A stretch of DNA of 64,000 bases from Meiothermus taiwanensis DSM 14542 (GTDB lineage: Bacteria > Deinococcota > Deinococci > Deinococcales > Thermaceae). A model generated the notes under the pieces. The model was given only the letters and a program-made list of their open reading frames with translations. It did not search any database and was not told where the DNA came from. Below are positions 272-58,250 of this stretch, piece by piece; position 1 is the stretch's first letter; the number at the start of each line of letters is the position of its first letter. Position numbers and translations under genes: made by a program. The stretch is taken from NCBI GenBank assembly GCA_000482765.1, contig AXWR01000009.1, positions 1-64,000 on the forward strand, given 5' to 3'.

Positions 272-582
272 ACAACGCAATCTGCGTTGAAAACGGCCTC
301 CCCTTCAACCCCTGTCTGGGATAATCTCACTCTACTACCAAGCCCTCCAGAGGCCATCTTTTTGCATCCTAGAGTCCAACCCTTGCTACGCTCGGCGGAG
401 AAAGCATAGCCCTTGGGTGGGGTTGGTTCGTTTCCAAACTAACCGATATCTAGTAGCAGATAACAGTGTAGTTTATGTGTGTAGCGTCTGCTACACCGAA
501 GCCCGGGCTATAGCTACACCACAATAGCCTACTCCATTTCAATCCCCGCACAAACTACCATCGACTTCAACGGGGTGTACGT
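272..582. other. Gene-free stretch between transposase and ppsA
   Basis: No convincing coding frame is visible. It holds a small inverted repeat at 274-288, a damaged copy of the two-hairpin repeat family at about 340-455, and then an AT-richer stretch leading to ppsA that should contain its promoter. The repeat copy has lost its left end on the side facing the transposase, which would fit damage by the insertion event. Confidence 0.6.
340..455. repeat. Two-hairpin repeat, damaged copy 1
   Basis: The block contains the family landmarks in the usual order: CCTCCAGAGGCCATCTTTTT, GCATCCTAGAG, a CTCGGCG-type insert, then GGTTGGTTCG...AACTAACCGA. The left arm (GATTCAAAAAGAT) and the left terminal ATACC are missing and the right terminus is altered. 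It lies between the transposase fragment and ppsA. Confidence 0.6.
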
Positions 583-7551: not shown

Positions 7552-7690
7552 TGGTCGCGGGAACCCGCATCCACAGGTGCCCTGTACTCGATTGCCTGAG
7601 CCTTGGCATTCCGCTGCTTTCGCTGGAGCTGCCGTTTGCGCTGTACACCCCGCTCCAGCGCCCGGGCCGGGCGGCCCTGATCAAGGCCCT

Positions 7691-7843
7691 GGATTCAAAA
7701 AGATGGTCATCCAAAGCAAAGACCTCCAGAGGCCATCTTTTCGAATCCTAGAGCACACCCCTCGCTGCGCTCGGCGAGGAAAGCGTACCCCTTCGGTCGG
7801 GCTGGTTCGCTGCCTTCCGCGCCGAACTAACCGAATCTGGTAT
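7691..7843. repeat. Two-hairpin repeat, copy 2 (with internal insert)
   Basis: The element starts at GGATTCAAAAAGATGG and ends CCGAATCTGGTAT. Hairpin 1 pairs GGATTCAAAAAGATGG with CCATCTTTTCGAATCC; hairpin 2 pairs GGTTCG with CGAAC around TGCCTTCCGCGC. Between them it carries an extra small hairpin, CTCGCTGCGCTCGGCGAG, absent from the 128-bp copies. Its right end abuts the stop codon of the GNAT gene exactly. It lies between two convergent genes. About 140 bp to its left hold nothing recognised. Confidence 0.85.
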
Positions 7844-11807: not shown

Positions 11808-11955
11808 TGCCGGATTCAAAAAGATAGTCATCGAGGGCGAAGATCTCCAGGGGCTATCTTTTTGCATCCTAGAGTACACCCCTCGCAGCGCTCGGCGAAG
11901 AAAGCGCATGGGTTGGTTCGCTGCCTTCCGGCACCGAACCAACCGAGTCTGGTAT
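11807..11955. repeat. Two-hairpin repeat, copy 3
   Basis: Begins ATGCCGGATTCAAAAAGATA, where the first A is also the last base of the TAA stop codon of the GGDEF-EAL gene, and ends GAGTCTGGTAT. Hairpin 1 pairs GATTCAAAAAGATAG with CTATCTTTTTGCATC; hairpin 2 pairs GGTTGGTTCG with CGAACCAACC around CTGCCTTCCGGCAC. It contains the same CTCGGCG insert as copy 2. It lies between two genes in the same direction. Confidence 0.85.
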
Positions 11956-13654: not shown

Positions 13655-13739
13655 AATCGTGGGTGGAGACTATCTTTTTGCATCCGGTATTAGAACTCCA
13701 AAGATGGCCTCTGTGAGGGCTTTCCTTTGGAACCGGTAT
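13655..13739. repeat. Two-hairpin repeat, rearranged partial copy 4
   Basis: GACTATCTTTTTGCATCCGGTATT matches one end of the family in the opposite orientation. It is followed by a short second unit, CTCCAAAGATGGCC...CTTTCCTTTGGAACCGGTATT, so two GGTATT ends lie about 50 bp apart. The right-hand GGTAT overlaps by one base the TAA stop codon of the Ldh-family gene. It separates mnmA from the convergent Ldh gene. Confidence 0.65.
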
Positions 13740-34117: not shown

Positions 34118-34136
34118 AGCGCCTTGGGCTTTAGTA

Positions 34137-34264
34137 ATACCAGATTCGGTTAGTTCGGCGCCGGAAGGCGGCGAACTAACCCGACCAACGGGAGTGCTCT
34201 AGGATTCAAAAAGATAGCCTCTGGAGGTCTTTGCTTTGGATGACTATCTTTTTGAATCCGGTAT
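34137..34264. repeat. Two-hairpin repeat, complete copy 5 (128 bp, inverted orientation)
   Basis: From ATACCAGATTCGGTTAGTTC to TTTTTGAATCCGGTAT. The GTTAGTTCG-CGAACTAAC hairpin comes first, then GGATTCAAAAAGATAG with CTATCTTTTTGAATCC enclosed in the second hairpin. Same length and structure as the copy at 53.6 kb in reverse. It lies directly upstream of the peptidyl-tRNA hydrolase gene, so the promoter of that gene must be inside or just after it. Confidence 0.9.
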
Positions 34265-34313
34265 AAAGTGGTTCTCGGAGAACCCAGTGCAACAAACTCC
34301 AAACAACAAAGTT

Positions 34314-35024: not shown

Positions 35025-35075
35025 ACCCAGTACAGCAAAATACGCTGTGCTGGGTATTCGTGGGAAACATTCTAG
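35025..35075. repeat. Second repeat type, copy B
   Basis: ACCCAGTACAGC pairs with GCTGTGCTGGGT (one mismatch) around AAAATAC, followed by ATTCGTGGGAAACATTCTAGA. The part from GCTGGGTATTCGTGG onward matches the copy before the CaCA gene. Its last bases, TCTAGAGCAC, run into a fragment of the two-hairpin repeat family, so the two families may be parts of one composite. Confidence 0.5.
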
Positions 35076-35131
35076 AGCACTACCTTCGGTCAGGTTGGTT
35101 CGCCGCCTTCCCCTGTGGATCTCGGCGCGGC
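35072..35131. repeat. Two-hairpin repeat, fragment 6
   Basis: CTAGAGCACTACCTTCGGTCAGGTTGGTTCGCCGCCTTCC matches the central and hairpin-2 part of the family; hairpin 1 is missing and the right arm is altered (CGGCGCGGC). It ends next to the stop codon of pstB. Confidence 0.6.
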
Positions 35132-35944
35132 TTAGCCGAAGCGTCCAGTGATATAGGCTTCGGTGCGCTTGTCCTTAGGTGTGGTGAACAAGAGGCTGGT
35201 GGGGCCAAACTCCACCATCTCACCATTCAGGAAGTAGCCGGTGAAGTCCGATACCCGGCCTGCTTGCTGCATATTGTGGGTTACGATAACGATGGTAACG
35301 TGGTTCTTAAGTTCGGTTAGCAGATCCTCGATGGACTGGGTGGAGATGGGGTCTAGTGCGCTGGTAGGCTCGTCCATCAACAAGACCTCGGGCTCAACGG
35401 CAAGGGCCCGGGCGATGCACAGGCGTTGCTGCTGTCCTCCTGAGAGGCTCATGCTGGGGGCATGGAGCCGGTCTTTGACCTCATCCCACAGGGCTGCCTG
35501 CCTCAGGGCGCGTTCGGCTGCCTCGTCTAAAAGGGATTTTTTGCGAATGCCTACCAGCCGCAAGCCTGCTACTACGTTGCCGTAAATGGAGAGGGTCGGA
35601 AAGGGATTGGGTTTTTGGAAAACCATCCCGATTTTGCGCCGCACCTCCACCGGGTCTACCCCAGCAGCATAGACGTTAATGCCATCCAACAAGACCTCTC
35701 CGGTCACGCGGGCGCTGGGGGTTAGGTCGTGCATGCGGTTTAGGGATCGTAGAAAAGTGGTCTTGCCACAACCCGAAGGCCCGATCAAAGCGGTCACCTT
35801 GTTGGCGTAGATCGGCATGGTTACGTCTTTTACGCCCGCCTTCTGTCCGTATATTACGGTCACATGGCGGGTCTCGATGCGGGTTTTGAGACTGGGATCA
35901 AGGGTCATCTCGGAACTGGCCATGGGTTTGAATTCACGCATCAT
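35132..35944 (-). CDS. pstB: Phosphate ABC transporter ATP-binding protein
   Basis: Powers high-affinity phosphate uptake. 270 residues with Walker [10 protein letters not shown] (about 55-63), the signature [16 protein letters not shown], Walker [14 protein letters not shown] and the switch histidine in [29 protein letters not shown] is the usual PstB region. The ATG is preceded by GGAGAG. Last gene of the operon pstS-C-A-B; the usual phoU is not found after it, its place being taken by repeats and pth. Confidence 0.96.
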
Positions 35945-48834: not shown

Positions 48835-48995
48835 GGGGGCAGTTTATCGCACACCGCCCATTACAAAGCAGCGTATGTGTCGCAGGATGCATTGGCTGTG
48901 GTGGCGGCGAGGGGTGCGCTGTATGGGGATGGCATCCAGCGAACCAGCCCAACGCCTTCTTCGCCGAGCGTATGGAGGGCTTGGCTTTGTGGGAA

Positions 48996-52234: not shown

Positions 52235-52987
52235 ATGCGGCGCGATGATCTGGTTCGCTGGCTGGATGAGTACCTAAAGATACGGGAGTTCAAAGACCCC
52301 TCGCTCAATGGGTTGCAGGTGGAAGGCCGGGAGGAGGTGCGCCGGGTGGGGGCCGCGGTGGACGCCGCCCAGGCCATCTTCGATAAAGCCGCCGAGGCCG
52401 GGGTGGATTTTCTTATCACCCACCACGGGCTTTTCTGGGGGCAGCCCTTTGCCATCGTGGGGTATCAGAAGAAGCGCCTCGAGCGGCTTTTCTCGGCGGG
52501 TATCAGCCTCTACACGGCCCATCTTCCCCTCGACGCCCACCCCGAGGTGGGCAACAACGCCGTCCTGGCCCGCGAGCTGGGGCTGCAAAGCCTGGAGCCT
52601 TTCCCACACCCCAAGTACGGCCACATCGGCTACATCGGCTACTTTGCCGAACCCACGCCGCTGGCCCTGGTGGAAGACCGCATCGGCGAGCTGACCGGTA
52701 TGCAGCCCCTGGTGGTGCGGGCTGGGCTGGACGAGGTGCGCCGGGTGGGCATTGTCTCGGGGGGCGGGGCCGGGGATGTGGGGCTGGCCAAAGCCCTGGG
52801 CTGCGACCTTTTCATCACCGGCGAGCCCTCGCACGCCCACTATCACGAGCCCTTCGAGCTGGGCCTGAACGTGATCTACGCCGGCCACTACGACAGCGAG
52901 ACCTTCGGGGTCAAGGCCCTGGCCGCCCGGCTGGAGCGCGAGTTTGGCCTGCCCTGGGTGTTTATTGAGCATCCGACCGGGCTGTAG
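52235..52987 (+). CDS. Nif3-like dinuclear metal centre protein (DUF34)
   Basis: 250 residues of the NIF3/YbgI family, forming toroidal hexamers with two metal ions per subunit. The ligands are in FLITHHGLFWG (His-His near 67), AHLPLDAHPEVGNN (the aspartate-histidine), and AGHYDSE near the C-terminus. The start MRRDDLVRWLDEYL with DPSLNGLQVEG is typical. Enzymatic role unsettled; GTP cyclohydrolase-like activity has been suggested for relatives. It is the short bacterial form without the PII-like insert. Ends 1 bp before tmk. Confidence 0.94.
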   Translation: MRRDDLVRWLDEYLKIREFKDPSLNGLQVEGREEVRRVGAAVDAAQAIFDKAAEAGVDFLITHHGLFWGQPFAIVGYQKKRLERLFSAGISLYTAHLPLDAHPEVGNNAVLARELGLQSLEPFPHPKYGHIGYIGYFAEPTPLALVEDRIGELTGMQPLVVRAGLDEVRRVGIVSGGGAGDVGLAKALGCDLFITGEPSHAHYHEPFELGLNVIYAGHYDSETFGVKALAARLEREFGLPWVFIEHPTGL

Positions 52988-52988
52988 C

Positions 52989-53615
52989 ATGAAAGGTCTT
53001 TTTATAACCTTTGAAGGCCCCGAGGGGGCCGGCAAGTCGACCCAGGCCCGGCTTTTGGCGGACTGGTACCGCCAGAAAGGGCGCGAAGTTGTGCTAACCC
53101 GAGAGCCAGGAGGTACCGAGCTGGGTGTAGAGCTTCGTCGATTAATTCTGACCCGTCCCATGCAGGCGGAGACGGAGTTTTTGCTTTACAGCGCCGATCG
53201 CGCTGAACACGCGGCTACCGTTATACGGCCTGCTCTTGCCAGGGGTGCGGTGGTTATCTGTGATCGTTGGTTGGACTCTTCGCTGGCCTATCAAGGGTAT
53301 GGTCGGGGATTGCCCTTAAGGTGGCTCGAGGAAGTCTCACGGGGTTTTCTTGGGGAACTGCGGCCCGACCTGACCTTCCTCCTGAGTCTCCCCCCTCGAC
53401 TGGGGTTATGGCGGGCCAAACATCGGCGGGCCTCGAGTGAACCTGACCGTTTTGAGGCCGAAGAACTGGCCTTTCATCAGAGGGTACTCGATGGATTTCT
53501 GGAGCTAGCAGCCAGAGAGCCGCAGCGCTTTGTGGTGATGGATGTTGAGAAGCCTTTTGAAGAGGTGGTTCAGCGGCAAATACGCCGTGAGCTGGAAAGC
53601 AGAGGGCTGGTCTGA
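52989..53615 (+). CDS. tmk: Thymidylate kinase
   Basis: Phosphorylates dTMP to dTDP. 208 residues with FEGPEGAGKST (P-loop, 8-18), the DRW triad (VICDRWLDSSLAYQGYGRG, about 93-110) and TREPGGTELGVELR with the dTMP-binding arginines. Lid region LGLWRAKHRRASSEPDRFE. Its codon use is less G/C-biased than that of murE and nif3 before it. The repeat element that follows begins on the last base of the TGA stop codon. Confidence 0.94.
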   Translation: MKGLFITFEGPEGAGKSTQARLLADWYRQKGREVVLTREPGGTELGVELRRLILTRPMQAETEFLLYSADRAEHAATVIRPALARGAVVICDRWLDSSLAYQGYGRGLPLRWLEEVSRGFLGELRPDLTFLLSLPPRLGLWRAKHRRASSEPDRFEAEELAFHQRVLDGFLELAAREPQRFVVMDVEKPFEEVVQRQIRRELESRGLV

Positions 53616-53742
53616 TACCGGATTCAAAAAGATAATCATCCAAAGCAAATATCTCCAGAGGCTATCTTTTTGAATCCTAGAGCACTCCCTTCGGTCGGGT
53701 TAGTTCGTCACCATTCGGTGACGAACTAACCGAATCTGGTAT
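53615..53742. repeat. Two-hairpin repeat, complete copy 7 (128 bp)
   Basis: The cleanest copy. ATACCGGATTCAAAAAGATA at the left and GAATCTGGTAT at the right are terminal inverted repeats. Hairpin 1: GATTCAAAAAGATA with CTATCTTTTTGAATC. Hairpin 2: GTTAGTTCGTCACC with GGTGACGAACTAAC around ATTC, a perfect 14-bp stem. The two hairpins are joined by CTAGAGCACTCCCTTCGGTCGG. Starts inside the tmk stop codon. Confidence 0.92.
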
Positions 53743-53787
53743 GAGCGGGTCTCATTCATCTTTGGGGCCATGCGGTAAGGTAAAGGC

Positions 53788-58117: not shown

Positions 58118-58250
58118 CCAAAGACTCCTTCCGGCAGCGAATGAAGGGATACGCTTTCTTCGCCGAGCGTGGCGAGGGGTCTGCTCTAGGATGCAAAAAG
58201 CTAGCTCTGGAGGTTTTTGCTGTGGATGACTGTCTTTTTGAATCCGCTAT
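58118..58250. repeat. Two-hairpin repeat, copy 8 (diverged, inverted orientation)
   Basis: Contains in reverse the CTCGGCG insert (TTCTTCGCCGAGCGTGGCGAG), CTCTAGGATGCAAAAAGCTAG, CTCTGGAGGTTTTTGCTGTGGATGAC and TGTCTTTTTGAATCCGCTAT. The left half, with hairpin 2, is degenerate. Several pairings of hairpin 1 are lost, so this is an old copy. Confidence 0.7.

Follow-up and report, generated by a model that had tools for sequence, protein, structure and literature searches.

The repeat that recurs along the window, i.e. the whole 64-kb stretch of Meiothermus taiwanensis DNA analysed here, is a MITE, a non-autonomous DNA transposon. It very probably belongs to a MITE family of Meiothermus, Calidithermus and Allomeiothermus that is moved in trans by an IS630-type DDE transposase duplicating TNA. 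The element is a unit of about 126 nt, present in high copy number and without a transposase gene, and both of its ends carry the terminal inverted repeat TACCRGATTC. Its ends, TNA duplication, empty sites and copy bursts were all demonstrated, as were IS630-type insertion sequences (IS) of the same bacterial family with TACC ends and a 3-bp duplication; that an IS630-type transposase is the mobiliser of the MITE is likely, judged from the resemblance of the ends. Such a transposase would recognise ends that start with TACC and carry AGATART at positions 15-21, would put the MITE into a TNA triplet with duplication of the three bases and would thereby mobilise it in trans. The data explain an abundant repeat family of these thermophiles and point to IS630-type elements that duplicate TNA instead of TA.

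Eight copies had been listed in the window by the original prediction, and the repeat was found at all eight places, both on inspection of the sequences and by BLAST with a library assembled from other copies (best E at each place 3e-6 or lower). Three of the eight are complete, two of them 126 nt long and one longer; two more are damaged, and the other three are fragments. BLAST gave one extra weak match of 35 bp at 48952-48986, while the reversed window, used as a control, gave no matches to the library. The complete 126-nt copy at 53616-53741 on the + strand, TACCGGATTC...GAATCTGGTA, scores 152 bits with the covariance model. Its left target duplication (TGA, 53613-53615, +) serves as stop codon for the upstream ORF at 52944-53615, which we take to be thymidylate kinase, and its right target duplication is the TGA at 53742-53744 (+). 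Hairpin 1 (53620-53677, +), with a 15-bp stem GGATTCAAAAAGATA/TATCTTTTTGAATCC, includes the inner portion of the left end, hairpin 2 (53698-53731, +) has a 15-bp stem and the loop ATTC, and the linker between them (53678-53697, +) is the place of optional modules in longer copies. The other complete 126-nt copy lies on the - strand at 34138-34263 (147 bits) with the duplication TTA, which reads TAA on the + strand at 34135-34137 and 34264-34266. A complete copy of 147 nt with a linker module (11808-11954, +, 94 bits) has the duplication TAA, the left one of which closes an open frame of 678 codons. The longer copy at 7687-7842 (+, 73 bits) also has a linker module and has lost its left TACC, and the right half of the damaged copy at 58138-58249 (-) has decayed (covariance match 58135-58249, 45 bits). 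Two places were detected by BLAST only, the covariance model giving no match there: 337-455 (+), which keeps the 3' arm of hairpin 1, a linker module and hairpin 2 and has lost the left end, and the short fragments at 13664-13731, with no strand assigned. The last fragment, at 35069-35131 (+), consists of linker and the 5' arm of hairpin 2 (BLAST 35069-35111; weak covariance match 35061-35147, 22 bits). The two complete copies had been described as exactly 128 bp long and oppositely oriented; their equal length and opposite orientation hold, and the transposing unit is now taken as 126 bp (TACC...GGTA) because the A and T at the outer edges are part of the TNA duplication. A 128-bp unit with a 1-bp duplication would yield identical filled and empty sites.

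This delimitation comes from comparison of the flanks, in which the unit TACC...GGTA has the three bases T-N-A repeated outside it on each side. Of 162 elements detected in a first set, 118 had identical TNA on both sides, 12 had differing TNA and 32 had other triplets; the corresponding numbers in a second set of 64 elements were 57, 1 and 6, with a few elements in both tallies counted on both strands. Where TNA stood on both sides in the first set, the middle base agreed in 48/58 cases, against a chance expectation of 27%. Furthermore, Meiothermus sp. KatS3mg071 (L187) lacks the 53616 copy; the empty site in this relative reads ...CCTGAGC... with TGA once, compared with ...CTGA[element]TGAGC... 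at the filled site of the window. For ten other copies from the same genome as the window, the two flanks were joined and compared with the 18 genomes of the genus, their own included. Among the matches listed, four (L004, L007, L019 and L021) had relatives matching across the empty junction, L003 had one partial match over the junction (query 26-140, 78%), and the remaining five had one flank or nothing. Read base by base, a single TNA is present in at least one relative at L004, L019 and L021 (one of the two relatives at L021 is too diverged at the junction for reading), and the L007 junction has the triplet CTA in genome G016 and extra bases in the second relative. The ends, the 3-bp target duplications and the empty sites, the last found in relatives for the window copy (in KatS3mg071) and for further copies of its genome, bear out the resemblance to a MITE that had been suggested from the window.

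Further copies were expected in the rest of the genome (3.02 Mb, 72 contigs) and are present there: the left-end pattern, with up to two mismatches, gave 109 matches genome-wide (48+61), against two (1+1) for the same pattern read backwards. Of 50 genomes in the bacterial family, at least 20 gave a match with the covariance model. Among the matches listed these included 16 of 18 genomes of the same genus (two gave no match) and both genomes in each of the genera g2 and g4, with none of the 27 genomes in g5 and not the single genome in g3. The survey scored up to 70 candidates per genome and the initial scoring took 40 of 156 candidates, so the resulting copy counts are lower bounds. Outside the bacterial family, BLAST against 16 further genomes of the order gave no match among those listed, and the proposed relation to the small non-coding repeats of Deinococcus gains no support from these 16. 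Two plasmid records matched, from Meiothermus taiwanensis WR-220 and from Allomeiothermus silvanus, where the match spans 60% of the element, and the phage records searched gave no match. For a gene of the window, the nearest neighbours come from Meiothermus. In genome G009, 123 of the 190 pairs among 20 copies are identical, reflecting a fresh burst, and the median pairwise identity over 14 copies of the genome containing the window is 90.5%; the recent spread that had been predicted therefore applies to some relatives and less so to this genome.

IS630-type elements of the same bacterial family have the layout of the MITE, with TNA on either side of TACC...GGTA. Eight IS630-type copies from five genomes (G022, G023, G003, G009 and G013) carry these ends with identical 3-bp TNA duplications, rather than the TA duplication described for published IS630 members. 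Five more candidates have unequal end triplets (L133, L134, L146, L169 and L383, the left end of L169 being doubtful), and several others showed one end only. The transposases contain HTH domains and DDE_3 and match the NCBIfam IS630 model, for which the second ORF of L150 lies above the cut-off and the first ORF of L150 and both L375 ORFs, taken singly, lie below it; the DDE_3 match of the L375 type is under the Pfam cut-off. In both loci the transposase is encoded in two overlapping frames (L150 660-675, around an A-rich run; L375 1192-1285), which may indicate programmed frameshifting.

Within the ends, AGATART occupies positions 15-21 of the MITE left end, as it does in both IS ends of the subgroup from G003 and G009. 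The likeness between the G003 IS right end and the MITE left end was equalled by 7/20000 shuffles, as the best of 12 comparisons, and a repeat comparison of the right end of the AGATART subgroup with the MITE left end was equalled by 4/10000. The fit to the IS was poorer for MITE left ends of the AGATAAT type (23/10000) and the 'AATCTTCAAAC' type (591/20000), the likeness of the MITE right end to the IS is weak (1373 and 5510 of 20000), and the IS subgroups of G013 and G022 show none of this resemblance. The genome containing the window has a decayed IS630 relative approximately 11 kb past the right end of the window; one of its ends carries AGATAGT, and as a whole it does not resemble the MITE significantly (1087/10000). 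MITE and IS630 elements have only TACC and one motif in common, without a long terminal repeat. In the search for an autonomous IS with the same ends, IS630-type elements were found to match the MITE in TACC, TNA and, in one subgroup, AGATART, and not over the whole terminal inverted repeat. Genome G009 carries the IS (7 matches) alongside near-identical MITEs, and the pair would be a candidate for a mobile system in two parts for use in the genetics of thermophiles.

The IS630 likeness could alternatively be convergence, the MITE being owned by a different TNA-duplicating transposase that is perhaps extinct or undetected. Several MITE-rich genomes have no matching IS630: the AGATART subgroup was not found in G013 and G015 at 1e-15, and G015 (an 85% complete draft) and G005 have no DDE_3 at all. 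Furthermore, TACCRGATTC ends were found on no intact autonomous element and, by eye, no facing pair of them encloses a transposase among the matches listed for G023 (all), G022 (part) and G009 (two matches); of two apparent exceptions, L121 is an IS630 relic joined to the end of a MITE and L370 an IS inside a MITE. The IS1031 and IS427 groups of IS5, which use TNA targets, would be examples of such an owner. Against a different transposase stand the TACC ends and 3-bp TNA duplication of the IS630-type elements, with the 15-21 motif in one subgroup, and the eight PF01609 (DDE_1) loci of the genome containing the window, at which such ends occur only in neighbouring MITEs; these loci, from a search for IS5-type transposases with PF01609 alone, were rejected as partner. 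On this evidence a separate owner is unlikely, and mobilisation by an IS630-type transposase is preferred.

Other candidates for an autonomous partner were also discarded. The IS630 copies fetched from G012, G008 and G016 have no TACC...GGTA ends with matching duplications. In locus L121 (384-1308, G023) a MITE left end runs into an IS630 relic that belongs to the TACCC subgroup and is frameshifted; the locus was ruled out as an autonomous copy, the related L146, L155, G022 L128 and others starting at TACCC, and the fusion probably arose by recombination between two TACC-ended elements. At L059 1-100 (C1:1-100) the sequence from about base 17-20 recurs without the MITE end at eight other places in the genome, and partly at a ninth, and the locus is therefore read as another IS within a MITE end. 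Separately, another IS, whose end resembles AACTGCGTAAxTCCTAA, directly adjoins the MITE left end at the same base in L006 (G000), L053 (G010) and L126 (G022) and interrupts a fourth copy slightly further in (L059 1-100, G000), a pattern that would fit a preference of this IS for MITE ends. In G013, a 1106-bp IS630-type element with duplicated TTC lies within a long-form MITE (L370 1206-2515); it probably moved recently, since two more copies elsewhere in G013 are identical over the aligned 1107 bp.

The 53616 copy folds far beyond shuffles on both strands (z -7.2 and -8.5), the TACC/GGTA ends closing two hairpins. In 31 aligned copies, 12 of 34 pairs have changed on both sides, nine of the 15 pairs of hairpin 2 have two-sided changes, and the two-sided changes amount to 43 cells, against 10.4 +/- 3.0 in shuffles and 12 at most with the partner slid. 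The compensating changes that had been noticed in the arms are therefore real, and the arms of the hairpins covary. This covariation fits selection on spreading copies and also template-switch correction of palindromes, so it is no proof of RNA function. The spreading copies have kept their hairpins conserved, which may serve transposition or transcript stability or may reflect palindrome correction only. Meanwhile, the linker varies, optional pieces adding roughly 20 to 70 nt in the genome containing the window, and detected elements range from 92 to 474 nt. In the G023 copies L107-L111 a GC-rich unit of 39 nt occurs 1 to 6 times in tandem in the linker, i.e. as a minisatellite within a MITE. 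A distant member in G017 (L056 1502-1624) has the altered ends TACCAGCTTC / TACCAAGTTG, and its hairpin 1 has changed to match.

The TNA triplets are TAA, TGA, TTA and TCA, and each of these is a stop codon on one strand. Intact insertions lie at the end of an open frame of at least 100 codons in 36 of 115 cases, against 167 of 1957 controls (p = 2.6e-11). Controls were TGA/TAA sites 30-300 nt away, gene ends were defined by open frames of at least 100 codons rather than by annotation, and removal of sites already counted and of flanks shorter than 303 nt had reduced the count from 118 to 115. The first set sums to 26/61, against 78/992 controls (10/25 in the genome containing the window, 4/7 in G023 and 12/29 at mixed loci). 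For a repeat test, 60 high-scoring copies were fetched from G009, G013, G022 and G002; this second set gave 10/54, against 89/965 (p = 0.03), about twice the control, with 3/10 in G022, 4/20 in G009, 2/17 in G013 and 1/7 in G002, none significant alone. The excess is far below that of the first set, and a claim of active stop-codon targeting was dropped. Young copies are over-represented in the second set because high-scoring copies were chosen, and in the two genomes with the freshest copies 6/37 are at stops, compared with 30/78 elsewhere (p = 0.018). None of the eight IS630 copies is at such a stop site.

Insertion at the stop of a gene should cost little because the TNA duplication restores the stop, and this low cost is probably why about a third of the sampled intact copies are found there. 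The simplest reading is that copies at stop codons persist by survival, since insertion rebuilds the stop, though genuine targeting may play a part; the gap between the first and second sets is read as survival bias, and sampling could also account for it. The coincidence with stop codons offers a simple rule by which mobile elements can accumulate in a densely packed genome and leave its genes intact. More tentatively, the elements could form a stop-codon-regenerating system: a TNA-specific branch of IS630 whose targets are exactly the stop codons TAA/TGA, read on either strand. If so, stop rebuilding would be a low-cost niche in compact GC-rich genomes and the MITE hairpins would become ready-made 3' ends for host genes.

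The strong fold, the covariation and the frequent placement directly behind stop codons would also suit a structured RNA or DNA element that is kept for a host function, such as an RNase site, an mRNA 3' stabiliser or a protein-binding site, and is incidentally mobile, as would the orientation of the first set, in which 18 stop insertions read the gene into the right end and eight into the left (p = 0.076). The second set did not repeat this lean, with 4 cases into the right end and 7 into the left (one element entering twice), palindrome correction can produce compensating changes, and copies occur in bursts of identical sequence. The element has no match, among the matches listed, in 2/18 same-genus genomes and in all 27 genomes of g5; Rfam gave no match on it in seven loci, and the one copy scanned contains no promoter- or terminator-like site. 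The function hinted at by the original prediction thus gains no support from these searches, and an element maintained for its host is improbable. The hairpin pairs and the high copy number would also fit a REP/BIME family with a RAYT-type transposase (Y1, IS200/IS605-like) as its mobiliser. This is highly improbable in view of the inverted ends with a 3-bp target duplication and the clean empty sites, which REPs are not known to have. REP/BIME hosts have a Y1 (RAYT) transposase, and Y1_Tnp (PF01797) had no match in the genome containing the window in a search that matched 5/14 control genomes.

The MITE and its proposed IS630-type partner have relatives in kind among known systems. Zator/TP36 elements make 3-bp duplications. 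According to the description in PMC7386202, this branch of the IS630-Tc1-mariner group is related to IS630 transposases; kinship to IS630 is what it has in common with the partner proposed here, and membership is not claimed. ISTth6, an IS630 element of Thermus, has 2-bp repeats in the account given in PMC6352166. Among the matches listed from the open-licence literature no paper on a Meiothermus MITE was found, and a named ISfinder entry is possible; no paper there joins 'Meiothermus' with 'miniature inverted', and PMC6352166 alone joins 'Meiothermus' with 'IS630'. BrickBuilt of Porphyromonas gingivalis is described as a MITE containing a minisatellite (PMC4596501) and, by that description alone, is like L107-L111 of G023, in a different host.

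The closest parallels are RUP of Streptococcus pneumoniae and the Correia/NEMIS elements of Neisseria. RUP is described as a 107-bp non-coding element of about 108 copies whose ends resemble those of IS630-Spn1, with mobilisation in trans proposed (PMC2229807, PMC3049150), and, like the MITE described here, it is small, non-coding and numerous and has IS630-linked ends. The two differ in sequence and in target, which is TA for RUP (as given in PMC2229807) and TNA here, and the MITE has two long hairpins and linker modules. The 107-bp and 155-bp forms of Correia/NEMIS, set apart by a 50-bp inner piece in the account of PMC2229807, parallel the 126-bp and 195-bp forms found here, and copy number is high in both. 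Correia/NEMIS elements have other hosts, TA at their ends and a 24-bp terminal inverted repeat (PMC2229807), and the portion of PMC10969869 concerned with them reports promoters and an IHF site, whereas the one copy scanned here has no promoter-like site. The MITE of these thermophiles works like RUP and the Correia elements, differing from them by its TNA duplication.
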